A DNA stretch of 26,277 bases from positions 1-26,277 of IMG/VR virus record IMGVR_UViG_3300027847_001842; one strand, given 5' to 3'. A program made the position numbers and the translations under genes. This document shows positions 6,028 through 22,837 of this stretch, one piece after another. The notes beneath the pieces were generated by a model that searched no databases, had not been told where the DNA came from, and saw only the letters and a program-made list of their open reading frames with translations. Every line of letters starts with the position of its first letter. The stretch's first letter is position 1. The DNA is from a virus.

Positions 6028-6347
6028 TGGATAAAATAGAAAAAGTAAGGTTCTCCGTAAAGGACATGTCTATGGAAACCGGCTTATCAAGACGTCTAGT
6101 ACTTCGTCTCATAGGCAATCACTTTATTAACACGGCAGAAATAAAGTCAGTTCAAGGAGGTAGGGGAGTGTTTCTTAGCAAGAAGCAACTACAAAAGCTT
6201 AAGAATATAATTGCCGAGAATGATAGATATAAAATTATACGCAAGCATCAGCAAAAGCTGGGCATCCTTAAAACACGATTCAACAAGTTATCAGTAAAAC
6301 TACAAGCGGTTGGTTTAGAAATCAAGAATATTGAATCATCTCTGTAG
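6027..6347 (+). CDS. Small helix-turn-helix protein with coiled-coil tail
   Basis: A 106-residue basic protein. Residues about 9-30 (FSVKDMSMETGLSRRLVLRL) look like the helix-turn-helix of a MerR/excisionase-type DNA-binding domain, and the remainder (GRGVFLSKKQLQKL onward) is helical with a likely coiled coil to the end. ATG at 6027 is preferred over the GTG one codon earlier because it gives the common TGATG stop-start overlap with the giant polyvalent gene, implying translational coupling. A terminator follows, so it closes the operon. The role is inferred only: a DNA-binding accessory or regulatory protein. A small terminase subunit is possible in principle, since no other is obvious near the portal gene, but nothing specific supports it. 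Confidence 0.65.
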   Translation: MDKIEKVRFSVKDMSMETGLSRRLVLRLIGNHFINTAEIKSVQGGRGVFLSKKQLQKLKNIIAENDRYKIIRKHQQKLGILKTRFNKLSVKLQAVGLEIKNIESSL

Positions 6348-6410
6348 AGAGTGATTATTTTTGGCGTGCTGTTACGTATAGTTTTGTAAGGTAATATTTT
6401 AAGATAAAAA

Positions 6411-6437
6411 GCTACATTTAATTTTGTAGCCTTTTTT
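6411..6437 (+). terminator. Rho-independent terminator after the polyvalent-protein operon
   Basis: GCTACA (6411-6416) pairs with TGTAGC (6425-6430) across an 8-base loop and is followed by a T-tract (6432-6437). It lies 64 bases after the HTH gene, in the expected place for rightward termination. Confidence 0.7.
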
Positions 6438-6438
6438 G

Positions 6439-6446
6439 TATATTTG
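6439..6446 (+). promoter_or_regulatory. Candidate Bacteroidota -7 element for the portal gene
   Basis: TATATTTG matches TAnnTTTG exactly and follows the terminator directly. No good TTTG -33 element is seen 19-21 bases upstream, so this is a weak call. If used, transcription would start near 6453, just before the leader hairpin at 6460. Confidence 0.35.
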
Positions 6447-6459
6447 AAACAACGAAAGC

Positions 6460-6491
6460 GGGGGCTTTCTGGTTAATATCCGGGAAGTCCC
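6460..6491 (+). promoter_or_regulatory. Leader hairpin before the portal gene
   Basis: A 12-bp stem with three G-T wobbles and one bulged G: the arm GGGGGCTTTCTGG (6460-6472) folds onto CCGGGAAGTCCC (6480-6491) with a TTAATAT loop, followed by ATTTTTATT. It ends 20 bases before the portal ATG and so is likely transcribed in that gene's leader. It looks like a terminator but follows a separate terminator at 6411. Confidence 0.6.
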
Positions 6492-6511
6492 ATTTTTATT
6501 AAATCTAAAAT

Positions 6512-8515
6512 ATGCCACAATTGCAACAAGAGTTAGATAGTCCTCTAATGAACATAGCCGAAGAAGAGGAAGGGTTTGAGCAGGAATCCACTATAATCCG
6601 TGATGGCCCTATATGGGACATAGCCCAAGACCTCATCTATGACTCGGAAATGTGCTGGTACAACATGAAAGATTTTCGGGAGCGTAGAGCAAGAAACGCC
6701 AAATTCCGGAAGGGCGATCAGTGGACAGACCTTGTTCCCGACCCTGACAATGAAGATGCCACCAACACCACCAAATATGTAACTGAAGAAACCCTCATAT
6801 TAAGGTCAGGCCGCACACCAATGGTCAACAACCAAATCCAGCAAGTGGTAAAGAACATGATTGGCCAGTACCGCATGAACGACTATGACCCAAGGGTGAT
6901 GGCCACCAAGCGGGAGCATCAAGAAACCTCGGAGATGATGACCAACACCTTAAGGTTTATCCAGGGGATCAACAACACAACCAACAATGACGCAAGGATG
7001 TGGGAGGAGTTCATAATTTCCGGTGTATCAATATCAAAGGAAATTTATGAATGGAAGGACAGCTTCGACAGAAAGCATCCAGACTCCGAGGAAGTGCATC
7101 CCGCACGATGGTTCATAAACACTGACATTGAGAAAAGAGACGGGTCGGATGTTGTCCTTGTTGGGGAGATATTAGATGTACAGATGGACGAATTGATCAC
7201 CTTATTCGCTAATATGAACCAAGCCACCAAAGACGATCTATTTGACATCTATCACGACCAGGTCTACGACCGAGCTTATTTTGAATCAAGGTTTGACAGG
7301 GACAAAATCGATCAGCTTGACTTCTTAATCCCCCACGACAAGACTAAGGCGAGGATATTCGAAATATGGAGAAGGGAACTTAGGGAGAAGTTGATTTGCC
7401 ACGACTGGGCAAAAGGCACCCAATATGAGCATGACAATGAAAACATAGAGGAGGCCATGGCTGATGTCGACCAAACAAATGCAATGCGAATAGAGGAGGG
7501 TATCCAGTTCGGGCTCCCGATTGATCAGATTAAAATGATCACCTGTGAAAGAAAAGAAGTGTTGATCTGGATGTTCTACTACCTCAGCCCTCATGGAGAT
7601 GTACTTGATTACGGAGAAACCCCCTATGATCACGGGAAGCACCCTTACACTATGTTGTTATATCCACTTTTCGACGGTGACATCTGGTCATTTGTAGAAG
7701 ATATAATTCCGCAACAGAAGATGATCAACCGCACCATTGGAATTCTTGACCTTACTTTAGGGACATCAGCAAAAGGGTTGCTGGCTATTCCGGCAGGGAT
7801 TATACCCGCAGGAATGAGTGAGACAGACTTCGCGAAAAAGTGGAGCAAGCCTGCCGGGGTAATGGTCTACGAGCCAAGGACAGACCTTCCGAATGGGGGG
7901 ATACCACAACAGATCAATAGCGCCGCCTCTCCTGTTGGGGCAACCAACTTACTGCAAATACAGCTCGGCTTACTGAAGGAGATTTCAGGTATCAACGATG
8001 CAATCCAAGGGCAGGCACCAAGTTCAGGGACATCGGGAAAGCTCTATGCCCAGCAGACTACAAACTCAACAATCTCCACGCGAGACTACTTTGATGTTTT
8101 CTTTGATTGGAAGCGAAGGAGAGACTTAAGGCTGGTACAACTAGCGCAGCAGTACTATGATGAAGAGGTGTTTGTCAACGTCACCGGTAAAGATTACAAC
8201 CCCAACTCAGACATCTACAATCCGATGATTGCCAAGGAGGCAAAGTACGACATTGTAATTGCTAAGTCACCACAGAGCCCGATATACAGGGTTGAGATTG
8301 AACAGCAACTTAACAACATGCTTAATGCAGGTCAGATAGACATCCATCAATTCTTAGAGAATTCAAACTTACCATTCAGTGATAAATTAGGGGAGATGGT
8401 GAAGGAGAGAGAAGAGAGGCTCAGGCAAAATGGCATAGATCCAGATATGATTCCCTTACAACAGCCCGCAAGAAATCCGCAAGCAGCGCAACAAAAGCCG
8501 ATAGGTCTACAATAA
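6512..8515 (+). CDS. Portal protein, P22-like
   Basis: A 667-residue protein in the size range of P22-type portals. These form the dodecameric ring at the head vertex through which DNA is packaged and ejected, and on which the terminase docks. Visible signs: an N-terminal acidic arm, the core stretch TPMVNNQIQQVVKNMIGQYR that is usual in the clip/stem portion, and SGINDAIQGQAPSSGTSGKL (about 491-510), the conserved segment late in the family. A Gln/Pro-rich disordered tail ends the protein. The ATG at 6512 follows an A/T-rich leader without Shine-Dalgarno, as expected for Bacteroidota. The gene stands apart from terL and the capsid gene, which lie 12-17 kb away. Family assignment is by remembered sequence character, not by search. 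Confidence 0.85.
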   Translation: MPQLQQELDSPLMNIAEEEEGFEQESTIIRDGPIWDIAQDLIYDSEMCWYNMKDFRERRARNAKFRKGDQWTDLVPDPDNEDATNTTKYVTEETLILRSGRTPMVNNQIQQVVKNMIGQYRMNDYDPRVMATKREHQETSEMMTNTLRFIQGINNTTNNDARMWEEFIISGVSISKEIYEWKDSFDRKHPDSEEVHPARWFINTDIEKRDGSDVVLVGEILDVQMDELITLFANMNQATKDDLFDIYHDQVYDRAYFESRFDRDKIDQLDFLIPHDKTKARIFEIWRRELREKLICHDWAKGTQYEHDNENIEEAMADVDQTNAMRIEEGIQFGLPIDQIKMITCERKEVLIWMFYYLSPHGDVLDYGETPYDHGKHPYTMLLYPLFDGDIWSFVEDIIPQQKMINRTIGILDLTLGTSAKGLLAIPAGIIPAGMSETDFAKKWSKPAGVMVYEPRTDLPNGGIPQQINSAASPVGATNLLQIQLGLLKEISGINDAIQGQAPSSGTSGKLYAQQTTNSTISTRDYFDVFFDWKRRRDLRLVQLAQQYYDEEVFVNVTGKDYNPNSDIYNPMIAKEAKYDIVIAKSPQSPIYRVEIEQQLNNMLNAGQIDIHQFLENSNLPFSDKLGEMVKEREERLRQNGIDPDMIPLQQPARNPQAAQQKPIGLQ

Positions 8516-8524
8516 AGAATAAAG

Positions 8525-8555
8525 TTTTTCTTTATAGATTTATTTTGTAGGTTTG
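8525..8555 (+). promoter_or_regulatory. Candidate promoter for the small genes after portal
   Basis: TAGGTTTG (8548-8555) fits TAnnTTTG, with TTTT (8525-8528) 19 bases upstream as an imperfect -33 element. The expected start near 8562 gives a leader of about 19 bases to the ATG at 8581. A weak ATAAAG/CTTTAT hairpin (8519-8536) that could end the portal transcript overlaps it. Confidence 0.35.
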
Positions 8556-8580
8556 ACAAGTATAAGCGGTGAACCTTTAA

Positions 8581-8739
8581 ATGCCTAATAGGCCAATCAT
8601 AATACAAGCGCACGACAACCTAACAAAAGGGCGCCGAGAGTATGCCCCTTATCCAGAGGAGATGGAAGAAGAGATTCGAAAAATCAAAAACAACAAAAAA
8701 GATGGTAGAATTCATACGCAAAGACTTAAGCAAAGTTGA
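8581..8739 (+). CDS. Small charged protein, 52 aa, unknown function
   Basis: ATG at 8581 stands 65 bases after the portal stop and behind a candidate promoter. The product is hydrophilic, with a segment rich in Glu then Lys (PYPEEMEEEIRKIKNNKK, about 24-41), probably helical. The overlapping reading frame from 8642 gives a far more basic, less natural N-terminus, so I take this frame as the real one until about 8700. I recognise no family. Its stop overlaps the next gene by 38 bases. Confidence 0.5.
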   Translation: MPNRPIIIQAHDNLTKGRREYAPYPEEMEEEIRKIKNNKKDGRIHTQRLKQS

Positions 8740-8911
8740 TACTCAAAGCCTGATCATTAGAAGGAACTGGGTAAAAGAAACTTTAGATCGTTATGAAAAA
8801 GGCACCGTTCCTCTATCAGACAAAGAATGTGAGATATCAGACGCTCTTGATGGAGTGTTTGTAGATTTGGATGGCGAAATATGGAGAAGGTTTAAAAACG
8901 ACTTCCCATGA
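8702..8911 (+). CDS. Small protein, 69 aa, unknown function
   Basis: The frame is open from 8642, but its first 20 residues are an out-of-frame copy of the preceding gene, so ATG at 8702 (MVEFIRKDL) is preferred. The product is a mixed-charge, soluble, mostly helical protein with a DLDGEIWRRF-type end. No signal peptide, membrane segment or known motif is seen. It is the last rightward gene before the non-coding gap at 8912. Confidence 0.5.
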   Translation: MVEFIRKDLSKVDTQSLIIRRNWVKETLDRYEKGTVPLSDKECEISDALDGVFVDLDGEIWRRFKNDFP

Positions 8912-8991
8912 AAATCGTCCATGTTCCCTTATTCAGCGTAAAGGCAAACAATTATTTTTTCATTCCAATAAATTAATAACCTAAAAACTAA

Positions 8992-9013
8992 AAGCGCCCT
9001 TGGAGGGGCGCTT
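8992..9013 (-). terminator. GC-rich terminator, mainly leftward
   Basis: AAGCGCCC (8992-8999) pairs perfectly with GGGCGCTT (9006-9013) across TTGGAG. Read leftward it is followed by TTTTAGTTTTTAG, a usable U-tract; read rightward it has few Ts. It would end transcripts from the leftward remnants at 9038-9858. Confidence 0.65.
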
Positions 9014-9037
9014 AAAACATATACACCAATGGTAAAG

Positions 9038-9272
9038 TTAACAAATATTAATAGGATTATCTATGGTTTTGGTACTTAAATCATTCGTTCGTAAATCAAA
9101 TTCATAACTTACCACTACATCATTAGCTTCAATTCTTATTAAATCTCCCACTTTTACTAATCTGTCATCAACATGAAACAAGAAAAGCTGCCATTGCTGA
9201 CAGCTCGTCTAATTTGGCCCCTATTGTTTTATTATCGAACCAATTCAAAACAAAGAAAATAGGGGGCAGAAA
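9038..9272 (-). pseudogene. Frameshifted remnant of an unknown leftward gene
   Basis: Two leftward frames read as protein-like and join end to end. The upstream frame (9272 down to about 9200) gives NWFDNKTIGAKLDELS; the downstream frame (9208 to 9038) gives a stretch including HVDDRLVKVGDLIRIEANDV and ending NPINIC. They are one base apart in phase and overlap near 9200-9208. Neither has an ATG in a sensible place. The composition is much more protein-like than expected for non-coding A/T-rich DNA. I recognise no family. A short TTG-started gene for the second half cannot be excluded. Confidence 0.4.
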
Positions 9273-9304
9273 TTATATCAATATAGAAATAGTATAATAA
9301 CATC

Positions 9305-9546
9305 TGTCACCAAAAAGGGTGACACATCGATTAAGGAGGGTGACACGTAGTGACAGTTGGTGACATATAATTTTCTATCTGTCACTCTTCTAAATGATTA
9401 GTAAACAAAGAGTTATGAAGTATTGGTGACAGATGACATATAATATATACTATAAAATATATAAGGTATATACTCCTCAAAACACTGATAATAAGGGGTA
9501 ATAGAGTGAAAAAAAGTTTTTCTGATATTATCTGTCACCTGTCACC
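9305..9546. repeat. Array of TGTCACC / GGTGACA boxes
   Basis: The heptamer or a near match occurs in both orientations at 9305-9311, 9318-9324 (an inverted pair six bases apart), 9339-9345, 9350-9355 (partial), 9359-9365, 9380-9386, 9425-9431, 9433-9438 (partial), 9533-9539 and 9540-9546. Two copies are followed by the same ACATATAAT stretch. No gene covers it. It looks like a cluster of protein-binding sites around an A/T-rich core (9440-9480), as in operators or replication origins. Confidence 0.6.
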
Positions 9547-9566
9547 AAATTGGAAAAGTACAACTA

Positions 9567-9719
9567 TCACCACACCTGAATCCCCCAACCCCTAACCTCC
9601 TTGTCCAGCTCTTTAGCATCACCAACAACATCATCGAGGCTTGACCAGAACTTATGACTATGGTTTTTGATTTTGGTATGGACGAGTTCATGTAGTATCA
9701 CATAGTCAATACAGTTATT
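9567..9719 (-). pseudogene. C-terminal remnant of a YgjP-like (DUF45) metallopeptidase
   Basis: Reading leftward from 9719 the frame gives IDYVILHELVHTKIKNHSHK followed by FW and about 25 more residues to a TGA at 9567. HELVH is the HExxH zinc motif, and NHSxxFW is the downstream third-ligand motif typical of YgjP/DUF45 metallopeptidases. Only about 50 residues remain of a domain that normally exceeds 200, and no ATG precedes it. GTG at 9699-9701 could start a 44-residue product but would keep only the helix carrying the zinc site. The upstream edge coincides with the stop of the ribbon-helix-helix gene, as expected at a deletion or recombination joint. Family call by motif; truncation seen directly. 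Confidence 0.7.
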
Positions 9720-9858
9720 TTAGTATTCTTTTCAAAGAGACTCGCACGTAGGAAGATATCTTTCTATCATCTTTTTTGGCTGCTTCTTCTATTTTTTTGT
9801 ATAGTTCTTGGTCAACTATAACTTGGATAGCCTTATACTTATTAGGAAATAATTTCAT
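9715..9858 (-). CDS. Small ribbon-helix-helix (CopG/Arc-like) protein
   Basis: A 47-residue leftward product from ATG at 9858. After a short lead, YKAIQVIVDQELYKKIEEAA has the strand then helix A pattern of ribbon-helix-helix DNA-binding proteins, and RKISSYVRVSLKRIL gives helix B with the usual S-x-YVR turn. Such proteins act as dimeric repressors or antitoxins. The frame is open 18 codons further upstream, but that extension would be a hydrophobic segment untypical of the family. The gene ends within the metallopeptidase remnant. No toxin gene is seen beside it, so an antitoxin role cannot be claimed. Confidence 0.6.
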   Translation of the reverse strand: MKLFPNKYKAIQVIVDQELYKKIEEAAKKDDRKISSYVRVSLKRILK

Positions 9859-9987
9859 ATAATTAAATGTAATACCAATAACTACAATAAGCAAAAAACA
9901 CTGAACCAGCAAATACTTACAAATAATTAATATTTGTGTTCTCGCCGCTTGATAGCTTTATTAAAAGATCACGATTGACAGGTTGGC

Positions 9988-10016
9988 ACAAGTGGCACTT
10001 TATTCATGCCATTTGT
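9988..10016. repeat. Inverted repeat in the gap before the structural operon
   Basis: ACAAGTGGCA (9988-9997) pairs with TGCCATTTGT (10007-10016), ten pairs with one G-T, around a nine-base loop. GACA/TGTC (9977-9980, 10019-10022) could extend it. No T-tract follows, so it is more likely an operator or structured RNA than a terminator. Confidence 0.4.
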
Positions 10017-10056
10017 AATTGTCTAACAACTACAAACGACTAAATAAATAAGCTAT

Positions 10057-10079
10057 AAGTCCTTTAACCGAGGATTTTT
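10057..10079 (+). terminator. Rightward terminator in the gap
   Basis: AAGTCCT (10057-10063) pairs with AGGATTT (10071 on, one G-T pair) followed by a run of Ts. It would stop read-through from the left before the structural operon, although no intact rightward gene lies close upstream. Confidence 0.5.
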
Positions 10080-10142
10080 TTGTTTTACATGCATTAACAC
10101 TATCTTAGCAAGAGTTAACTTTTTTATAACTCATAATGAATC

Positions 10143-10178
10143 AGGGGATTCTTGTTATCGAACAGGAGTTCCTTTTTT
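10143..10178 (+). promoter_or_regulatory. Leader hairpin before the structural operon
   Basis: AGGGGATTCTTGTT (10143-10156) pairs with AACAGGAGTTCCT (10161-10173) through 13 pairs with one bulged A and a tight ATCG loop, then TTTTTTGTTTT. It ends 33 bases before the ATG at 10207. The shape is that of an intrinsic terminator placed in front of a gene. Confidence 0.6.
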
Positions 10179-10206
10179 GTTTTAACATCTAAAAATAAAT
10201 AATATC

Positions 10207-10938
10207 ATGAGCAAATTAATAGAATTAGTATCAGGTAAGATTGGCTCAATGAGAGCGTTCAATAAGATAGAGCGTGACGATTTGATTGCCGCAGTGGATG
10301 GTGTCTCTACAATACAGACAGCCATCACAGCCAACACAGGATCTACACAGGGAACTGGGGAGGCTTTGACCGAAGGGTTTAATGAAATAACAGTATGTGC
10401 CAACGCTGGCGACGCGGTGACGCTACCAACAGCGGTAGCTGGATGGACGGTAAGGGTCAAGAACAACGGAGCTACATCCGCAGACATATTCCCATTCTTA
10501 GCTGATTCAATCGACACCGAATCGGCAAATGTTGCAATAGCGATTGAGCCGGGACAGACTATCTCATTCACAGCGGTAACCGCAGTGATTTGGGAGACTA
10601 CTGGCCGAGTACCGCCTGTTGCTATATTAGATGCAGTCCAGCAGGACTTGACAGGAGCAGGAGCAGCTAGTGTCACGTCATATTACACAGCATGGACTAC
10701 TGGGAGCACTGATGCGCTAACACTAGCTAGCGGCACATTTGTTGGGCAATTGAAAAAGATTGCAATGATCGTTGATGGCGGAACAGGAACACTTACCCCA
10801 GCAAGCTTTGTTGGGAGCACCTCTGTAGCTTATGCTGATGTAGGAGACTACTGTGTATTTAGGTGGAATGGTGTAGGTTGGAGGCTGATTGAATTAGGCA
10901 ACAACACTACTGGAGCAGCAGGCCCAGCAGTTACCTAA
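10207..10938 (+). CDS. Putative phage structural protein, beta-rich
   Basis: A 243-residue protein very rich in Ala, Thr, Gly and Val. Two beta-rich parts are visible. Residues about 60-130 include AVTLPTAVAGWTVRVKNNG and an EPGQTISFTAV turn. Residues about 160-235 include VGQLKKIAMIVDGGTGTLTP, YADVGDYCVFRW and NGVGWRLIELGN, the repeating pattern of a C-terminal domain found in many phage virion proteins of the decoration or fibre kind. It has no signal peptide or membrane segment. It is the first gene of the rightward operon running to 14570. Exact virion role unknown; decoration, head fibre or tail-adaptor component are all possible. Confidence 0.6.
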   Translation: MSKLIELVSGKIGSMRAFNKIERDDLIAAVDGVSTIQTAITANTGSTQGTGEALTEGFNEITVCANAGDAVTLPTAVAGWTVRVKNNGATSADIFPFLADSIDTESANVAIAIEPGQTISFTAVTAVIWETTGRVPPVAILDAVQQDLTGAGAASVTSYYTAWTTGSTDALTLASGTFVGQLKKIAMIVDGGTGTLTPASFVGSTSVAYADVGDYCVFRWNGVGWRLIELGNNTTGAAGPAVT

Positions 10939-10983
10939 GAATTCAAAATAGTGTGTATTAAATATAATTAAATCATAAAAATC

Positions 10984-11121
10984 ATGGCAGTAAGTATTAA
11001 ATCTAAATACAGTCAAAAACTATCTTACAAGAAGCCTAAACGCAAGAAAGGGGTAGTTGGCAAGGTAGGTTCAGGTAGAATGAAGGGAAGCAAAAAACGG
11101 AGGAGTAGTAGTGGATACTAA
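10984..11121 (+). CDS. Tiny strongly basic protein, 45 aa
   Basis: ATG at 10984 follows an A/T-rich leader (ATCATAAAAATC) like those of its neighbours. About 18 of 45 residues are Lys or Arg (for example KKPKRKKG and KKRRSSSGY at the end) and only a few are hydrophobic, so it is probably disordered and nucleic-acid binding. It overlaps the next gene by 11 bases, as the other junctions of this operon do, which supports real translation. A packaged DNA-condensing or ejected peptide is an attractive but unproven role. Confidence 0.55.
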   Translation: MAVSIKSKYSQKLSYKKPKRKKGVVGKVGSGRMKGSKKRRSSSGY

Positions 11122-14716: not shown

Positions 14717-16075
14717 ATGGCAACCAACAGTATTTACAACCAACTAGGGGAAACAAACAAGCAACCGCCCGGTACAGGACAGAATGGTGGGCAATGGTTT
14801 AATACATTTTTTGATAGCTTGCCTCAACCAGGCGCAGGGCCAATCAATGAAATAAATCAAAGACTCTATGGAGCTAAAGAGGCAGCTTTCAATTTTCTAA
14901 ACAACAACAGAGTGCAACCAGAGATGCCAATAGAAGACGAAGAGAAGAAGGCTGAGATCAAAAGGAAGATGAAGGTCAATGCGCTCGGTGACGCAGTAGG
15001 CATGTTATTTGGCGGGGCATTAGGGGCAATGGGACATTCTTTTGCAGTACCAGAAGATAAGGAAGGACCATACCTAATGAAGAAGATCGAAGGTATGGAC
15101 GCTGCACACCAGACTGCAATGGAGAAGTACAATGACAGGATATTCGAAATGAAAGGCGATAAGTGGGATGCGAAAGCTGGTTTTATGGTGAACGAGATTA
15201 ATAATAGGGAAGAACAAATACAATTATTTAACAAGACCGCAGAAGATAGACGGGTTGAACAGGGGAGATTGGGCATTCGGCGGGAAGAATTGGCCTCCAG
15301 TCAGCTGAAGGAAATAAGAGCTCAAATCGATGACTTCAAGGAGGAGCGGGGAGCTACACAGGAAAAGCTTTTGAAGCTGCAGAGAAAGCGAACAGAGCTA
15401 GGAGTCAGGGAAGAAGCGATATACAACATAGAGAATCCGACGGGTCCAACATATGCGGCGCAAATGGGGTACTATGATGAAGATATATCCAAATTAAAAA
15501 ATGATATTGCGGGATATGATAATAGTCTAGATGGGCTGCATCGTATGGGATCACGAATATTAGGCGTCCCCTTTGTACCCCCCGTAGGTCTAAATGGCAG
15601 TGGAGAAGGTGGAGAAGGTGGAGAAGGTTTAGAAGGGTCGGATGAGGCGGCCAAGAGGGTTGATAAGATTAGAACTAGTTTTCAACGCATTTTTAATCCT
15701 GAAACAAATACATTCGAAGAGGAAATATCACTGACTAAGGAGGAGAGGGTGAATAAAGCCCAAACAGAGGCCTCAATTATTATAGACGAAGTAAGAGAAG
15801 CATGGAAAGGGGAGGATACCCAACCAACCCGGTTTAGGACAGAGAGGAAGACCGCTTCAGCAAAGGTCAGGGAACGTCTTCTTGCCGACTATGATAAATT
15901 ATCTAGCGGTTCGGGTACGAAGGGCACGGTTGATAATAAAATTGTCTTGGAGCTGCTAAAATATATAGCGAACGATTCCAGTATTGGTGATAAATTGTCA
16001 AGCAGGGCAAACGATGTCTTCGAGATTATTAACCCTCCGTTTGTGAGTCAGCGTGCTAAGTTTGTTGAAAACTAA
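14717..16075 (+). CDS. Coiled-coil virion-associated protein, unknown
   Basis: A 452-residue protein from ATG at 14717; the frame is open from 14678, but that start lies inside the repeat array and adds a lysine-rich stretch untypical of the rest. Residues about 89-107 (ALGDAVGMLFGGALGAMGH) form a glycine-rich hydrophobic segment that could insert in a membrane. Residues about 130-245 are strongly charged and heptad-like, a probable long coiled coil. A Gly-Glu repeat (GEGGEGGEG, from a 9-base DNA repeat near 15602) separates this from a helical C-terminal part. Its place behind the large Gln/Gly-rich gene suggests a partner ejection protein. No family recognised. Confidence 0.6.
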   Translation: MATNSIYNQLGETNKQPPGTGQNGGQWFNTFFDSLPQPGAGPINEINQRLYGAKEAAFNFLNNNRVQPEMPIEDEEKKAEIKRKMKVNALGDAVGMLFGGALGAMGHSFAVPEDKEGPYLMKKIEGMDAAHQTAMEKYNDRIFEMKGDKWDAKAGFMVNEINNREEQIQLFNKTAEDRRVEQGRLGIRREELASSQLKEIRAQIDDFKEERGATQEKLLKLQRKRTELGVREEAIYNIENPTGPTYAAQMGYYDEDISKLKNDIAGYDNSLDGLHRMGSRILGVPFVPPVGLNGSGEGGEGGEGLEGSDEAAKRVDKIRTSFQRIFNPETNTFEEEISLTKEERVNKAQTEASIIIDEVREAWKGEDTQPTRFRTERKTASAKVRERLLADYDKLSSGSGTKGTVDNKIVLELLKYIANDSSIGDKLSSRANDVFEIINPPFVSQRAKFVEN

Positions 16076-16142
16076 TAAAACAACTACATTAGACATTCAA
16101 TTCAATTTTTTTTGGGTTTAGGGTTAAAGTTTAGTATGAAAT

Positions 16143-16172
16143 GAGGGAATTTATAGTTCCCTCTTTTTTTTT
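16143..16172 (+). terminator. Terminator-like hairpin between operon end and small-gene cassette
   Basis: GAGGGAAT (16143-16150) pairs with GTTCCCTC (16156-16163) across TTATA, followed by nine Ts. It lies 68 bases after the preceding stop and 38 bases before the ATG at 16202, so it can end the large operon or act in the next leader. Confidence 0.7.
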
Positions 16173-16201
16173 GTACCTTCGACATATTCAAAAAAACAAC
16201 A

Positions 16202-16361
16202 ATGAACACACCCACCACCAAGCAAAACCTAGATGAGTTCATATAATTGGTTTCCCACTGGGCGGTTTCCCAATCGCATAATACGAAGGCTACGCATGTT
16301 TGAGTCTATACAAGAAAAACACAAAAGGCTTTACGAAGAAAGAAGATGGGGAAGTATATGA
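16202..16361 (+). pseudogene. Small phage gene broken by a one-base frameshift
   Basis: ATG at 16202 sits behind the hairpin and an A/C-rich leader like that of the scaffold gene. It reads MNTPTTKQNLDEFI and meets TAA at 16244. Skipping one base at that point opens a frame that continues NWFPTGRFPNRIIRRLRMFE and ends at TGA 16359-16361 after SIQEKHKRLYEERRWGSI. That stop overlaps the next ATG as ATGA, exactly like the following junctions, so the two halves most likely form one gene of about 52 residues carrying a one-base insertion. A short independent gene from ATG 16296 (21 aa) is the alternative. No function is known. Confidence 0.5.
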
Positions 16362-16486
16362 GAGATAAGCTTAAGTCTGCTCCAGAGGCTGTAGCCACAC
16401 CACTGGCTACTAATGCGTTTGCCGCTATAGAGAAGTTGTCATGGTATGTGAAGTCGTATAAATGGTTCTTAAACTTACTTAAATGA
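16358..16486 (+). CDS. Small protein, 42 aa, unknown
   Basis: ATG at 16358 overlaps the preceding stop (ATGA) and the gene's own stop overlaps the next ATG in the same way, giving a translationally coupled chain. ATG at 16346 in the same frame would add four residues, but the overlap favours 16358. The product is Ala-rich in the middle with an aromatic, hydrophobic C-terminal third (KLSWYVKSYKWFLNLLK), possibly an amphipathic or membrane-binding helix. No family recognised. Confidence 0.5.
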   Translation: MRDKLKSAPEAVATPLATNAFAAIEKLSWYVKSYKWFLNLLK

Positions 16487-16854
16487 TCACCACTATTATA
16501 TCATACGCCTTGTTTATGGTGGCCGGTGCCGCCAACGGGCTAATGGATTCTTCAAAGTTTCACTGGAAGAAGTCTTTTGTAAAAAGGATATTCGTTGACA
16601 AGTTTGGTTGGAGTGAAGACTTCTGGAATCCTAAAAGATCATGGGTAAGAAAATATAGAGAAATAGGAAACTCATGGATAGCAAACATCTTAGAGAAGCT
16701 TGATAATTCATGGCTTTCATTTACTACAGACGGCTGGCGTCTATTAAAAGAAATAATGATCACAAGTATTTGCTTGGGCGTGGCTCCGGTTTGGTGGATG
16801 TACCTTGTCCTCCGGTTAATGTTATGGGCGGGGTATAAAATCACATACAGATGA
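16483..16854 (+). CDS. Small membrane protein, unknown
   Basis: A 123-residue protein with a hydrophobic helix at residues about 2-20 (ITTIISYALFMVAGAANG) and another at about 92-117 (TSICLGVAPVWWMYLVLRLM). Between them is a hydrophilic Trp-rich part with KFHWKKS, SEDFWNPKRSWVRKYR and SWLSFTTDGW. FH...FWNPK.SW is a pattern I have seen in conserved Bacteroidota and phage membrane proteins of unknown role. Both ends overlap their neighbours by four bases. The two-helix layout would allow a holin-like role, but nothing specific shows it. Confidence 0.65.
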   Translation: MITTIISYALFMVAGAANGLMDSSKFHWKKSFVKRIFVDKFGWSEDFWNPKRSWVRKYREIGNSWIANILEKLDNSWLSFTTDGWRLLKEIMITSICLGVAPVWWMYLVLRLMLWAGYKITYR

Positions 16855-17177
16855 TCGTAGTCTACCCAGACTCAAAGTTTCTATGTATCCTATTTAGAAT
16901 ATACGTAGCCATTATATTATGGCATTGCTATATATAAGCCGATTCATTTGACACGATCTTCATAAAGGCCAAAGAGAGATATGTTAATAATAAGGATACT
17001 TTTGGAAAGTATGAAGATGATTCTTACGTATCAGGGTATCTTGACTCTTACAGCGACGCCTACCAAAATTTGTTTTATTGTTATTATGACGATGGATTAA
17101 AAAAGATAAACAATGAAGTGTTTGGCCTGTGGTACAGAACTCATACATGGTGGAGACCACGACATAGAAGAAGATGA
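16851..17177 (+). pseudogene. Membrane-anchored protein gene interrupted by an in-frame TAA
   Basis: ATG at 16851 overlaps the preceding stop as ATGA. The frame gives 28 residues, hydrophobic in the second half (FLCILFRIYVAIILWHCYI), then TAA at 16935-16937. Without a phase change it continues ADSFDTIFIKAKERYVNNKD, FGKYEDDSYVSGYLDSYSDA and on to TGA 17175-17177. The downstream part has no ATG, GTG or TTG before a late TTG, yet its composition (Tyr, Asp, Lys rich, well ordered) is clearly protein-like. The most economical reading is a single gene of about 80-108 codons with one nonsense change, for example from TAT or TAC. Stop read-through is possible but other genes in the window end with TAA. 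Confidence 0.55.
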
Positions 17178-17244
17178 AGCTGAGTTTGATGGTCATAAGA
17201 TTGTGACAAATCTATCGTGTCCAAAGTGTGAGGTGTGGGTATAA
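17113..17244 (+). CDS. Tiny zinc-ribbon protein, 43 aa
   Basis: ATG at 17113. The product starts MKCLACGTELIHGGDHDIEE and ends with VTNLSCPKCE and three more residues. Cys 3, 6, 36 and 39 form two CxxC knuckles, the four zinc ligands of a minimal ribbon, with an acidic loop between them. The pattern CxxCGTELIHGGDHD...VTNLSCPxC is common in small phage proteins of unknown function. The usual short C-terminal tail after the last knuckle is nearly absent here. It overlaps the end of the interrupted frame upstream by about 65 bases. Confidence 0.75.
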   Translation: MKCLACGTELIHGGDHDIEEDEAEFDGHKIVTNLSCPKCEVWV

Positions 17245-17251
17245 GTGTATC

Positions 17252-17645
17252 ATGGAAAAGACCTTGATGATGAGACGAGACTTCATTAAATCAACATCAC
17301 TGGCAGCCCTGCCATTGTTATTACTGATAACCTGGGATGTAGAAGGAAAGGTTACAATTGCGTACCTACCCTACCTTCCACCAAAGCCTGGAATTGAAAA
17401 ACTACTAATGTGTGGGTATAAGAGGGGGGGGTCACTAATACTATCAGTATTCATCCCCACGATGATCTTTTTTTCGCAAAGTATAGATTCGCTCCATCAA
17501 AGTCGAAGCGAGGGGTGAGATTAATATTTTTGATATAAGGTCCGATATAAAACACTGGATCACAATAAACATCACTGGGGAAGTTCAATTATTTATCAAC
17601 CATAAATTTGTCTCAGGACACTACTTATGCAAGAAAATAAAATAA
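17252..17645 (+). pseudogene. Signal-bearing small gene with two apparent frameshifts at G-runs
   Basis: From ATG 17252 the frame reads through RRDFIKSTSLAALPLLLL, which resembles a twin-arginine or lipoprotein-type signal, then PYLPPKPGIEKLLMCGYKRG to an eight-G run (17424-17431). The frame used up to there gives poor sequence afterwards and stops at 17518. A -1 shift at the G8 opens VTNTISIHPHDDLFFAKYRF and SKSKRG; a second -1 shift at the G4 run (17512-17515) opens EINIFDIRSDIKHWITINIT and EVQLFINHKFVSGHYLCKK, ending at 17645. The three parts join into a credible protein of about 130 residues. This is an inference from composition; a 96-residue or shorter intact product is the alternative. 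Confidence 0.4.
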
Positions 17646-18418
17646 TAGTAGATTTTTCATTGAAGTTAGCTAATGAAATATTAGTAAGGAACATCAATAA
17701 TTTAGATGAGGTTTCAATACTGATTGAAGTTAGGCTTCATGATGTGATTAGAGATTTGATGAATGATTATTCAACACAAATTGTAGGGGCGATGAAGCGA
17801 TCAGTAGAGAAGGCGGACTATTTAAAACGGATTGAACAACAGGATAAAAACAGAATTGGCAGTAAAAAATATCTATCAGATTACCGTCAATATACATGGG
17901 GGCACATAGAAAGTGAAAATAGTCAAAGGTTTGCCAATGCTCTGGAACTAAAAAAGAAGGGTATATCAAACGTTGATATTGCCAGACAATTCGATGTCTC
18001 AGAGGGTGCTGTACGAAAGTGGCTCAAGAAGGCAGAATCAGAAGAATACATCATCAAGGCCAATTATAAGGTTCCTGAAGATGGAAAAACTTGTAATGGA
18101 TACACTCTCGCTGAAATTGCTGCCTATGTTTTGGAATTTACTCCGAGAGGTTATCGTGTTTCCGCAAAGAAGATTGAAGCCATTCTAAAATCAATGGAGG
18201 CCGAGGAAGTCAGGACTAAAAAAGAAAGGAAATGGAAAATAGAAAAAATACAATTAAATGCAGCTAAAGCTAAGAAAGCGGCAGCTAATCGAGCTGCAAA
18301 TGGTACGGCGGTGAATGATGATTTTGAACATTTATTAACTTATGTTAAAGAAAGATTTGGCAAAGAAATTATTGATGATTTTAATTCTCGCTTTGCCAAA
18401 GAAAACCCCAATCTATAA
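17627..18418 (+). CDS. Helix-turn-helix DNA-binding protein, 263 aa
   Basis: An intact 263-residue protein from ATG 17627. Residues about 112-134 (GISNVDIARQFDVSEGAVRK then WLKK) are a textbook homeodomain-like helix-turn-helix as in resolvase, transposase or small-terminase DNA-binding domains. The N-terminal 100 residues are helical and charged; residues 185-230 are a Lys/Ala-rich helix (AAKAKKAAANRAANGTA); a short acidic C-terminal part follows. It could be a phage regulator or a small terminase subunit, which also combines such an HTH with helical regions; no distinguishing motif is visible. Its start lies 19 bases inside the end of the broken upstream frame. Confidence 0.6.
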   Translation: MQENKIIVDFSLKLANEILVRNINNLDEVSILIEVRLHDVIRDLMNDYSTQIVGAMKRSVEKADYLKRIEQQDKNRIGSKKYLSDYRQYTWGHIESENSQRFANALELKKKGISNVDIARQFDVSEGAVRKWLKKAESEEYIIKANYKVPEDGKTCNGYTLAEIAAYVLEFTPRGYRVSAKKIEAILKSMEAEEVRTKKERKWKIEKIQLNAAKAKKAAANRAANGTAVNDDFEHLLTYVKERFGKEIIDDFNSRFAKENPNL

Positions 18419-18428
18419 AACTTAAAAT

Positions 18429-18593
18429 ATGAAAATGTCACCATTAGCAATTGAAATTATTTTATATTATCACACCTCCCCACCAGATGTGGATTATTAC
18501 AATCTTGATAGCCCAGTCTCGCAAGACATTATAGAGAATTTAACAACTCGTTCGTGCGGCACTTATTTCCTCTCCCCCGAAAAGGGTGGTTAA
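18429..18593 (+). CDS. Small phage protein, possibly truncated
   Basis: ATG at 18429, ten bases after the HTH gene. The product, 54 residues, starts MKMSPLAIEIILYYHTSPPD. This resembles small phage proteins beginning M-x-PLA-(I/L)-x-IL-(L)-HY-xx-xP, thought to adopt a winged-helix-like fold, and its SCGTYFLSPEKGG matches the position of their Y-x-LT-E-KG segment near the C-terminus. In those relatives about 15-20 residues follow; here TAA comes at once. The frame one base over continues VNARNDNLIQMKNKV to 18714, so a small frameshift may have cut the end. Confidence 0.5.
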   Translation: MKMSPLAIEIILYYHTSPPDVDYYNLDSPVSQDIIENLTTRSCGTYFLSPEKGG

Positions 18594-18609
18594 TGCCAGA
18601 AATGATAAT

Positions 18610-18744
18610 TTAATTCAAATGAAAAACAAAGTCACCAATCTCCTGAATAGGTATACTAGGAGGGGCAATGTAGATTTCTGGGTATCCATTTACAGACACC
18701 ACCCAAAACGTTAGGGCAATTTCGTTGAAGAAAATAGAAGCCAT
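18610..18744 (-). CDS. Possible small leftward gene, 44 aa
   Basis: Leftward ATG at 18744 and TAA at 18610-18612. The product is hydrophobic and well composed, including NEIALTFWVVSVNGYPEIYI and APPSIPIQEIGDFVFHLN. It lies 126 bases beyond the MerR-like gene on the same strand and could share its transcript. The opposite strand over the same bases also has a 31-residue frame, so one of the two is a shadow; I favour this one for its composition and ATG. No family recognised. Confidence 0.35.
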   Translation of the reverse strand: MASIFFNEIALTFWVVSVNGYPEIYIAPPSIPIQEIGDFVFHLN

Positions 18745-18870: not shown

Positions 18871-19461
18871 TTAATGTTCCATGAGGGCTTTCATTTCTTT
18901 CATTTCTTTCATTTCTTTCAATTTTCTTTCAATTTTCTTTTCATTGATTACATAGTGAAAACTCAATGAAATATGGTTGGTGAGGCTTTTGTGATTACGA
19001 GTATTGTCCAAATCAAACTGTGTGGCAAACTCGACAGAGAAGTCGCTAAAAATTAGAAGGTAGATAGCTTGTCTTTCGCTAAGATACTGTGCCACAAAAA
19101 ATTCCAATAAAGGCATTCTGGATGGGCTGACCTTCTTTGCATCAAAAGTAAGTTGCTGGTAAATGTGTTGAATGTCCTGTAACGAGATTCCGAAATTCCG
19201 TAAATCACGGATTAGCAGCAACCAAACTAAGTCAATGAAAGAGAACAGCCGCCAGCCTTTTCCCTTGGCCCCTCGTTCAGCATCAAACAAACCACCTTTC
19301 TCCCAAGAGTTCAAGATGCGATAAGAAAAGGATCTGAGTTCATCCCTCAGTTTAATATCCCTTTCATTCAGTTTGCTGCGGGCATCTTCATGTGTAGCAA
19401 ACCATTGAATGTATCTGTCCTTAAAATTATCCTCTCGTAAAATCTGTTCTTCCTGGGCCAT
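18871..19461 (-). CDS. MerR-like DNA-binding regulator
   Basis: A 196-residue leftward product from ATG at 19461. Residues about 45-100 fit a MerR winged helix: FSYRILNSWEKGGLFDAERG, then KGKGWRLFSFIDLVWLLLIR and DLRNFGISLQDIQHIYQQL, i.e. recognition wing (WRLFS-x-x-D) followed by the LRxxGISLxxI helix. The normal N-terminal first helix is preceded by about 40 charged residues. The rest is a helical, mostly hydrophobic effector or dimer region without the metal-binding Cys pattern of classic MerR. The C-terminus ends in an EMK repeat coded by a nine-base microsatellite. A dyad with nested palindrome lies 83 bases upstream and is a likely operator. Candidate phage regulator, or partition or replication protein. 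Confidence 0.65.
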   Translation of the reverse strand: MAQEEQILREDNFKDRYIQWFATHEDARSKLNERDIKLRDELRSFSYRILNSWEKGGLFDAERGAKGKGWRLFSFIDLVWLLLIRDLRNFGISLQDIQHIYQQLTFDAKKVSPSRMPLLEFFVAQYLSERQAIYLLIFSDFSVEFATQFDLDNTRNHKSLTNHISLSFHYVINEKKIERKLKEMKEMKEMKALMEH

Positions 19462-19650: not shown

Positions 19651-19724
19651 AGAACGTTAATAGAACGTTAATAGAACGTTAATAGAACGTTAATAGAACG
19701 TTAATAGAACGTTAATAGAACGTT
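19651..19724. repeat. Tandem 11-base repeats AGAACGTTAAT
   Basis: Six exact copies start at 19651, 19662, 19673, 19684, 19695 and 19706, and a seventh AGAACGTT at 19717. A degenerate copy precedes them (AGAACGAAAA, 19641). Each contains the palindrome AACGTT. The 11-base step keeps every site on nearly the same face of the helix, as in iteron or protein-polymerisation arrays. Confidence 0.85.
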
Positions 19725-20093
19725 TTCACCACAACAACCATTGATAAAATACTTGTAAAGTAGTTGTTTGGTTGTTTGTAGTGGTTTAGACAACCATAAA
19801 CAACTGAACATCAATAAGGATTTTTGAACAAACACCTATTGAACTTTGATCTTGTAATCAAAGAAAAGACGATATTATCGTCAATCATGAGTAGCTCCTA
19901 ATAGCTTTCATTACTTGCATATTACTTGCAAGCAACTTTTGAAAGTATCATGATGACCACATTTGGGTCATTATGAATAATCCATACGAACATATTATAG
20001 CCTTAATTTCCTAATTTTCCACTTTGGGAATATTGGGAAAGTACCAAAAGGCTCATTTCTTTTGAAAAAGGATACAGGGAATTTTCAGGGAAT

Positions 20094-20218
20094 TTTCAGG
20101 AACTATGTAAACAACTGATATTCAGCTATTAATGCTATGTGTTCAATTGGTGAGAGGAATTTTCAGGAACTTTCAGGAACTATGTAAACAACTGATATTC
20201 AGCTATTAATGCTATGTG
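20094..20218. repeat. Perfect 48-base direct repeat
   Basis: Bases 20094-20141 recur identically at 20171-20218, 77 bases apart, and similarity continues after each copy to GAGGAATTTTCA. Short copies of GGAATTTTCAGG also precede the first (20078-20100). Confidence 0.85.
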
Positions 20219-20298
20219 CTTAATAGTTAGAGGAATTTTCAAGTAACCTTAAAAAGAGTTTTTAAACCCCAAAACCTCAGAGGAGTTATTTTTTTCCA

Positions 20299-20376
20299 GG
20301 CAAAGCGGGCAAGAAAAAAGGCAAAGCGGGCAAGAAAAAAGGCAAAGCGGGCAAGAAAAAAGGCAAAGCGGGCAAA
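20299..20376. repeat. 21-base tandem repeat
   Basis: Three full copies (20299-20319, 20320-20340, 20341-20361) of GGCAAAGCGGGCAAG followed by six As, plus a partial fourth to 20376. Rightward it could encode GKAGKKK repeats ending GKGMGGF and TAG, but no start codon precedes it in frame. It lies 100 bases beyond the terL stop. Confidence 0.8.
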
Positions 20377-20475: not shown

Positions 20476-22473
20476 TTAGTAATCTGCGTAAGACCCATTA
20501 GAAACAGAGACTATTCCTTCCTTCCTTTTCTCTACCAAAACGCAGGGGCGCTCGTTGTAACAAAGCCAATAGCCAATCATTGTAGGGATAAGGACGTCGT
20601 CATGTTGCCCCTCTACGTGTCCCATCCTATTGCGGCCACCACGACTGGGGTCTTTGTGTTCATAAAAAGATGCCTCATAGTAAACCTCTTCATCAAACTC
20701 CAGTAGGCCGTCCTCTCTTAGAAGCTTAAGCATAAAGTTTGATATCCTTGTCTTGTTGTCGTTGGTAGTCCACCAACCATACTTGGTAGGGAGGCCTGCC
20801 CTGACTTGGTCTACAGGGGTTCGGGTATACATATTCTTAACCACCTTACCTATCTCATCGATAAAGGTCTCAAAGTGCTGGCCTTCGGTATCTCCTTGGT
20901 TCTGCCCTGTGAAGTTGGCTTCAATAGCCAATAAGGCATCACCATAGATGTGGGCTAACTGGGCAGCCTTCCAAGCCATGATGTCTTGATCGATCCTTCC
21001 CTTCCATGAAAACACCCTTTGTGGAACCCCCCCTTTTGTCATTGGTGCACGGTCAAAGCCATTGATAGTACTCCAGTCGGCAGTCTTTGATTTACCTCCT
21101 ATGTCAACGGTGACGATGTATCTATTTTGGTAAATAAAATCTTCTGGTGGCGCGGGCTTATTAGGCATATCCCATATTCTCAAATTACCATGCTCCTGTT
21201 TTAATGGGAATATGTTCTCAAGTATTTCTTTACCTGTTCCTTCCGGATAAATCTCTCCAATAAAAGGGGGAACCCTCATAGTCTTCTTAATTTTCATAGA
21301 GTACTGTGGCGGGAAGAACAGCCTTCCGGAGGAAGCGAAGGCCTCCTCTGCCGAGGATGGGAACTCTGAGAACATCCGCCATGTATCATTGTGGTAGTTC
21401 TTAAGTTTGACGCGATACCACTTAATCCCTTCCAGTGTGGCCCCCATACCCCATACAGACTTCTCATACTCGGTCATTGAATCAATAAGAGCCTTGGCCT
21501 CCTCAACATCTCCGAATTCTATTTGGTATAGTTCAATTAAGAACCATGGAATAAACAAGGGGGTGTATGGGTTCTTTTTTTGAGTAGCGGCCATATATTC
21601 TCGATGGAAGAAACCACCAGATCCTTTAGCGGTAGACTCAAGCGCAAGAAAGGAATAAGGCTCTTCCAGTATCGATCCGGTGATTGTTTGCATTAAGTCT
21701 TCTGGCTTCCTAGTCTCAGAGGACTGCCACGAAGCTATCTCTGTGCAATGAGCCATCTTGATGTTTTTCACCCGGAGGCCTTCAGGCTTAACCATAGACC
21801 CCACAGAAATCACACATCGTCTATCCTTAATGATTCTTGTTTTGGTTGATCCTTCAAAAGACTCAAGGACATAATCTTTTAATTCATAGTTGTCAAGCAG
21901 GGTGTTATACATACTCCTGACGGTGATCGATTGTTCTTCGGTATCCCCGACAATTACACTATGCCAGTTGATTTTATGTATCAGTTGTATCCACGCCATG
22001 TAGATTTCTATAAGTGTAGACCCTCCCCACTGTCTTGCTTTGACAAGGATAATACGTATGGGCATTTCTGCAATACGCATCTTTTCCAATTCGGCCAATA
22101 GAATCCTTTGGGCATACCGCAGTATGAAGGGAACAACAGGCAAAGTCCCGCCAATGTCTGTTTTCGGTTCTATCATTGTTGTGAGGCCAGCCCAGAATTC
22201 AAAGTCCTCGGCAAACCGGCAGGCGTTCATTTCTTGTATACCGGTGTCTAAGGGAATATCTAGATCATGGCAGTAGTGATCTAGGGACTCATGTTGAGCG
22301 AAAGGGGAGCTTTCAAGAGATTTAGGCAGGTAAATTGGTATTGTATTGGCAGATACGCGGAAAGGGAACCTTTCTATCAGGCTTCCTTCACCTGTTCCAG
22401 GTACGTAGGGGTCGGTAAAAACCTTGTTTCTCTTATCATTTTCTTTAAAGTACTCATGGTAATTGCTGTTCAT
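20476..22473 (-). CDS. terL: Terminase large subunit
   Basis: The packaging motor: an N-terminal ATPase drives DNA through the portal and a C-terminal RNase H-fold nuclease cuts genome units. Numbered from ATG at 22473 (665 aa): Walker A-like KARQWGGST at about 145-153 (the Arg/Gln/Ser-Thr variant usual in terminases), Walker B MAHCTEIA near 240-247 with the catalytic Glu at 245. The nuclease acids are in VTVDIGGKSKTADWST (Asp 457), LLAIEANFTG (Glu 518) and GQHDDVLIP (Asp 625/626). All key residues are present. The frame is open 38 codons further upstream, but that part overlaps the divergent gene and reads as low-quality hydrophobic sequence; MNSNYHEYF behind an A/T-rich leader is the better start. 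It is transcribed against portal, scaffold and capsid genes. Confidence 0.95.
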   Translation of the reverse strand: MNSNYHEYFKENDKRNKVFTDPYVPGTGEGSLIERFPFRVSANTIPIYLPKSLESSPFAQHESLDHYCHDLDIPLDTGIQEMNACRFAEDFEFWAGLTTMIEPKTDIGGTLPVVPFILRYAQRILLAELEKMRIAEMPIRIILVKARQWGGSTLIEIYMAWIQLIHKINWHSVIVGDTEEQSITVRSMYNTLLDNYELKDYVLESFEGSTKTRIIKDRRCVISVGSMVKPEGLRVKNIKMAHCTEIASWQSSETRKPEDLMQTITGSILEEPYSFLALESTAKGSGGFFHREYMAATQKKNPYTPLFIPWFLIELYQIEFGDVEEAKALIDSMTEYEKSVWGMGATLEGIKWYRVKLKNYHNDTWRMFSEFPSSAEEAFASSGRLFFPPQYSMKIKKTMRVPPFIGEIYPEGTGKEILENIFPLKQEHGNLRIWDMPNKPAPPEDFIYQNRYIVTVDIGGKSKTADWSTINGFDRAPMTKGGVPQRVFSWKGRIDQDIMAWKAAQLAHIYGDALLAIEANFTGQNQGDTEGQHFETFIDEIGKVVKNMYTRTPVDQVRAGLPTKYGWWTTNDNKTRISNFMLKLLREDGLLEFDEEVYYEASFYEHKDPSRGGRNRMGHVEGQHDDVLIPTMIGYWLCYNERPCVLVEKRKEGIVSVSNGSYADY

Positions 22474-22501
22474 CGATATAAAATTACTATTTTTGGAATT
22501 A

Positions 22502-22837
22502 ATGGAGCTAAAGGCAGGGCTGTTCATAGAAGGCCAAGAGAAAAAAAAAGAGATAATTGAGTTTATCAAAGCTCTGCGCCAACACAATATTTTATCAAAA
22601 AAGAGAGCTAAAGAAGCTGGCCACTATATAGAAAGGGCTTTTCAAGTGGCATTTGTCCAAGATACACAGGAAAGGTATTTATTGGACGATGATCTGATAA
22701 TAATAAACAATATATTAAACCAAGTGGCTAGAGGAAAGAGGAAGGTGATGTTTGAGCTTACTGAAGATGGTTTTTGTCTTCGTGAAGTATTTACAGGGGA
22801 GGAGTGGCAATTGATGGTAGGAGCAAAACCAAGTTAA
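22502..22837 (+). CDS. Small helical protein divergent from terL, unknown
   Basis: A 111-residue product from ATG at 22502 (MELKAGLFIEGQEKKKEIIE); the frame opens earlier, but that start would lie within terL. It is mostly helical and charged, with VARGKRKVMFELTEDGFCLR as a likely beta hairpin near the end. The starts of this gene and terL are only 28 bases apart on opposite strands, and TATTTTTG (22488-22495) in that gap fits a -7 element, which would give an almost leaderless message. By position it could be a small terminase or head accessory protein, but no motif shows it. Confidence 0.55.
   Translation: MELKAGLFIEGQEKKKEIIEFIKALRQHNILSKKRAKEAGHYIERAFQVAFVQDTQERYLLDDDLIIINNILNQVARGKRKVMFELTEDGFCLREVFTGEEWQLMVGAKPS

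Follow-up and report, generated by a model that had tools for sequence, protein, structure and literature searches.

The window, by which we mean the whole 26,277 bases of this IMG/VR record, is a virus fragment, and by its gene content it comes from a tailed phage with packaging and capsid genes akin to those of Bacteroidota phages and prophages. It encodes a likely capsid protein and a large polyvalent protein (Pfam LPD38), together with the two genes that frame the region considered here:

6512 to 8515, plus strand: portal protein (PHROG 156, E 9.2e-61).
20476 to 22587, minus strand: terminase large subunit (TerL), with the true start probably inside (PHROG 2, E 4.6e-10; relatives found).

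The named relatives are the Bacteroides phages BS-TP4, BF1-TP2 and BKO1-TP3, and across these phages and Bacteroidota prophages the portal is about 32-33% and TerL about 34% identical to the window's proteins. In BS-TP4, as in the window, a plus-strand portal gene converges with a minus-strand TerL gene and is followed by a plus-strand capsid gene, and the window shares homologous portal, TerL and capsid genes, in the same order and orientation, with the Bacteroidota group to which BS-TP4 belongs. Relatives of TerL were found at 167 genome loci; the titles of the best 80 of these 167, which were the ones used, are mostly Bacteroidota with one Spirochaetia MAG, and several of them sit on contigs of 1-3 million bases (Odoribacter laneus, Phocaeicola massiliensis and Bacteroides congonensis). 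Because TerL relatives occur on such large Bacteroidota chromosome contigs, the group includes integrated prophages. A study of incomplete prophages describes preferential loss of replication, packaging and release genes (PMC7744054), and, judged against it, the intact packaging and capsid genes of the window would fit a phage that either remains active or has integrated only recently. In three Bacteroides phage records, TerL homologues carry the label ‘tail spike protein’ (L003:17472-19568, L015:4028-6055 and L016:7500-9614).

The portal and TerL genes of the window lie 11,960 bases apart. Among 93 loci with both genes in reach, some of them near copies of one another and a few with a different gene order, the spacing is at most 1,236 bases in 84 and never more than 5,184, in contrast to the window. 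The portal loci extend only about 10 kb from the portal gene, and TerL is present in 50 of the 54 that have at least 3.5 kb downstream. The closest portal relative (L018) is among the remaining 4 of 54, without TerL in reach, and its portal-TerL gap is about 10.6 kb, so a wide gap is not unique to the window phage. Taken together, these comparisons indicate that the portal-TerL interval is an accessory region, small in most cases but large in the window phage and in this nearest portal relative. In the part of the latter that was read (L018 / G037), ORFs of at least 60 aa between portal and terminase are mostly on the minus strand. Within the window's own interval we find one truncated gene far from the small-gene cassette that is our main subject:

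9597 to 9719, minus strand: what is left of a YgjP-like metallopeptidase gene, covering roughly its last 41 residues and lacking a start codon (Pfam PF01863, E 4.5e-12, profile positions 163-203 of 207).

This remnant corresponds to the C-terminal fifth of the protein, sits in a 1.3-kb gap (8912-10206), and is present both in the window and in a second assembly of the same phage. As judged by its profile match, it shows that gene decay extends beyond the cassette to elsewhere between portal and terminase. The remnant immediately follows a small ORF of the same strand (about 9720-9870), which by eye resembles a ribbon-helix-helix protein.

The cassette itself occupies the stretch after 16,200 and comprises mostly very small ORFs:

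16143 to 16172, plus strand: intrinsic terminator behind the 465-codon gene, setting the cassette apart (9-pair stem and T9; fold z -3.91).
16202 to 16246, plus strand: A1, a 14-codon ORF with stop TAA at 16244 (codon score +5.6 bits over 14 codons).
16233 to 16361, plus strand: A2, a 42-codon ORF with its own ATG, overlapping A1 (codon score not coding-like).
16358 to 16486, plus strand: B, a 42-codon ORF with an ATGA overlap on each side (ORF listing, codon score).
16483 to 16854, plus strand: C, an intact 123-aa protein with hydrophobic stretches (ORF listing, codon score).
16851 to 16937, plus strand: D1, a 28-codon hydrophobic ORF with stop TAA at 16935 (codon score -5.0 bits).
16938 to 17112, plus strand: D2, coding-like, without a start codon, a probable gene remnant (codon score, PHROG profile, phage protein match).
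17113 to 17244, plus strand: zinc-ribbon gene shortened by a TAA at 17242-17244 (80 of 80 relatives and 9 of 9 named-phage copies read on).
17245 to 17289, plus strand: putative former tail of the zinc-ribbon gene, its start still similar to relatives (VYHGK; comparison with relatives).
17252 to 17518, plus strand: E, an 88-codon ORF whose N-terminus is hydrophobic and which stays open through a run of eight G at 17424-17431 (ORF listing, codon score).
17516 to 17642, plus strand: E3, an open stretch in a third frame, tentatively an old C-terminus of E (+5.1 bits over 36 codons).
17627 to 18418, plus strand: intact 263-aa helix-turn-helix protein (PHROG 7061, E 1.2e-7; Pfam HTH_23).
18429 to 18593, plus strand: F, a 54-codon ORF with a stop near 18590 (codon scores).

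A first coding model called nothing in 16069-17614 coding, intact C included, and so has little power for such small genes; our verdicts on them rest instead on finer codon scores. Relatives of protein C were found neither in a search of IMG/VR for close relatives nor among 50 viral records examined in full, of which 36 belonged to the 80 zinc-ribbon loci and 14 to the 79 new portal loci, and the IMG/VR search returned no close relatives of the helix-turn-helix protein, the 465-aa gene or D. The initial annotation had described broken genes gathered in this cassette while the long genes are intact. The intact long genes are directly visible, each keeping one frame with no shift, and the general picture of the cassette holds, with a revised list of defects: of the five proposed, the TAA at 16935 is a probable one, the two frameshifts at G runs gain tentative support, and those placed at 16244 and 18590 are unsupported.

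The clearest defect was absent from that list. It is an in-frame TAA at 17242-17244 in the zinc-ribbon gene, and comparison with relatives leads us to the firm conclusion that this gene is broken. A scan of IMG/VR confirmed at least 586 relatives, of which the best 80 were read, and at the position of the window's TAA every one of the 80 has a sense codon, most commonly for Glu (39) or Leu (25). The match extends to 31 phage records, and the nine that were read likewise all carry a sense codon there. The gene, then, has a disabling change that is missing from its relatives, as a pseudogene would. Small zinc-ribbon proteins of this kind (PHROG 2816) occur in marine cyanophages, pelagiphages and related contigs and share a CxxC...CPxC pattern, a GGD motif and a 43-residue core. 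The window copy retains the two CxxC pairs and the GGD motif, whereas its stop falls before the VY tail conserved in the 80 relatives, and that tail is lost from the ORF. Other marine phages carry the gene too, and they are its probable source. Among the relatives listed the nearest is L097, with DNA 84.6% identical over 162 bases. Amino-acid-changing sites make up a share of 0.71 of the differences between these two copies, a value reached by 4 of 120 intact pairs, although the pairs are not independent; dN/dS is 0.57, below 1 and based on only 23 differences, versus 0.12 between L097 and L098. With so few differences and such pairs as their basis, these values hint at relaxed selection on the gene. 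The similarity between window 17113-17274 and L097:287-448 is confined to this single 162-base gene, as though the gene had moved alone, and in some phage records homologues are labelled ‘protease’.

The position of the stop also bears on a different reading, under which the cassette would be made mostly of intact tiny genes, A1 being a leader ORF, A2, B, C, D1, E and F being complete, and the zinc ribbon being shortened yet working. The stop lies shortly after the last zinc-binding cysteine, all four cysteines are kept, and the truncated protein may still be functional; moreover, the ATGA overlaps that join A2, B and C speak for this reading. Against it stand the 80 of 80 relatives, the best among at least 586, that read on through the site, and, as we discuss below, the state of D2, A2 and E. 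We consider it rather unlikely.

The TAA proposed as a defect at 16935 is present, at 16935-16937, and probably does break a gene, as suggested by the coding score of D2, its missing start, and matches to a PHROG profile and a Vibrio phage protein. The 58 codons of D2 that lie behind the stop score +14.8 bits as coding, with the other two frames negative. D2 matches the PHROG profile with E 0.0083 and aligns with residues 18-71 of a 259-aa Vibrio phage protein, in which 17 residues precede the match. The score of this alignment was reached by 0 of 2000 shuffles, uncorrected for the search that picked the protein, and against the whole collection the best E, again for the Vibrio phage protein, is only 0.06 and not significant. 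The 28 codons of D1 before the stop do not match the start of that protein (102 of 500 shuffles reach the score), and PHROG 17714, sought in two Vibrio phage records, gave no match. Matches of C-terminal residues of D to L097, L101 and L104 are zinc-ribbon DNA read in another frame, and we dismissed them as evidence. A stretch that is coding-like yet has no start codon at all is at odds with a cassette of intact tiny genes.

The G runs of E are as previously described, with eight G at 17424-17431, the longest such run in the window, and four at 17512-17515, and E may carry one or two frameshifts at these sites. Behind the first run, the frame proposed in the initial annotation beats E's own frame by 6.8 bits of codon score, and behind the second it leads the next frame by 4.5 bits; in a calibration on the long genes, with stops penalised, 201 windows of 28 codons were scored and a wrong frame beat the true one in 1 of them. 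The joined E peptide, in turn, found no homologue in our searches, among them those of Pfam profiles and the same 50 viral records, and the ORF at 17252-17518 is open across the run of eight. This openness fits the reading in which the tiny genes are intact, but E after 17432 is not coding-like in its own frame, and neither is A2. Phase variation of a phage-encoded membrane or exported protein, with the eight-G run as a slippage hot spot and the sampled copy switched off, strikes us as very improbable. The remaining two proposals fared worse. Near 16244, A1 overlaps another ORF that begins at an ATG of its own (16233-16361), and the frame behind 16244 that would be joined, which is that of A2, is not coding by codon score; near 18590, the proposed continuation scores -0.5 bits over 39 codons.

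The initial annotation also raised the possibility of genuine recoding, in which ribosomes would read through TAA or shift at the G runs so that longer proteins are made on purpose. Sequence behind both TAA codons is still protein-like, and eight consecutive G can form a slippery site. However, TAA is the ordinary stop here: it ends nine intact genes of the window (those for the portal, the 243-aa, 151-aa, 180-aa, 194-aa and 465-aa proteins, the helix-turn-helix protein, and the 395-aa and 174-aa proteins), and as so common a terminator it rules out an alternative genetic code or a general recoding of TAA. We looked for stimulating RNA structure behind the sites, and the 96-base folds are within the range of shuffled sequence (z -0.24, 0.85, -0.74, 0.81 and 0.46), and behind the eight-G run, a candidate slippery sequence, the best pseudoknot-free fold has z of just -0.24. 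With nine intact genes ending in TAA and ordinary folding behind the sites, recoding is unlikely, and we would call it extremely improbable. In-frame stops in bacterial genes with low dN/dS have been interpreted as possible readthrough (PMC7918605), and those genes and the window are alike in having a nonsense codon within a gene whose remainder is still conserved. They differ in that many of the stops in that study are evolutionarily conserved, whereas the zinc-ribbon stop of the window is found in 0 of 80 relatives.

Could the genes instead be intact, their stops and missing bases being local errors of assembly or sequencing that arose where about 1.3 kb was thinly covered or had a poor consensus? 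G runs are the site of two suspected defects, and our searches of IMG/VR found no second assembly over 16.2-18.7 kb (through C, the helix-turn-helix gene and the 465-aa gene, and with an exact 24-base cassette pattern). A second IMG/VR contig of the same phage (L002) does overlap window positions 1-11108, ending short of the cassette, and over these 11,108 bases there are 3 substitutions and no gap or indel, with all 23 of 23 homopolymers of at least six bases identical in length. A uniform error rate would produce no more than about 0.4 indel over 1,425 bases, which bears out the earlier judgement that uniform sequencing error is unlikely. The chance that all of 2, 3 or 5 defects would fall within the cassette is 4.2e-3, 2.7e-4 or 1.1e-6, respectively, figures that were calculated after the fact and are silent on local error. 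The YgjP-like remnant, covered by both assemblies, misses most of its gene, which is beyond what such error makes. We therefore regard local error as distinctly unlikely.

We favor ordinary decay of horizontally acquired accessory genes, to which we assign a probability of about 0.68. The stops, the relatives that read on and the intact long genes are directly observed, while we infer the reality of the changes in the virus itself, the acquisition of the genes and their later loss of function. The cassette would belong to the accessory region of a Bacteroidota-type phage, flanked by its convergent portal and terminase genes, and its genes would be dispensable to the phage, so that mutations are no longer removed by selection. 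The zinc-ribbon gene would have suffered a nonsense mutation just past its last zinc-binding cysteine, the gene at 16938 would have been left without its start, with the TAA at 16935 as the probable cause, and E may have gone through one or two frameshifts at its G runs. Decay, one of the two explanations offered in the initial annotation, is thus supported in the case of the zinc-ribbon gene, with less certainty in that of the gene interrupted at 16935, and the YgjP-like remnant adds a third case. The outcome, one firmly and one probably broken gene besides a few unproven candidates, with no sign of recoding, is real but ordinary. It places intact long structural and packaging genes alongside decaying accessory genes in one phage, a small, clear illustration of how phages gain and lose genes one at a time, and it leaves general views unchanged.

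Beyond the cassette, the neighboring sequence has features of its own. An intact MerR-family regulator adjoins it (18871-19461, minus strand; Pfam E 3e-10), and the 1-kb gap from this gene to the terminase holds three tandem repeat arrays, at 19651-19724, 20078-20241 and 20298-20375, with units of 11, 77 and 21 bases. By eye, the 21-base array encodes GKAGKKK repeats and resembles the tail of a lost gene.
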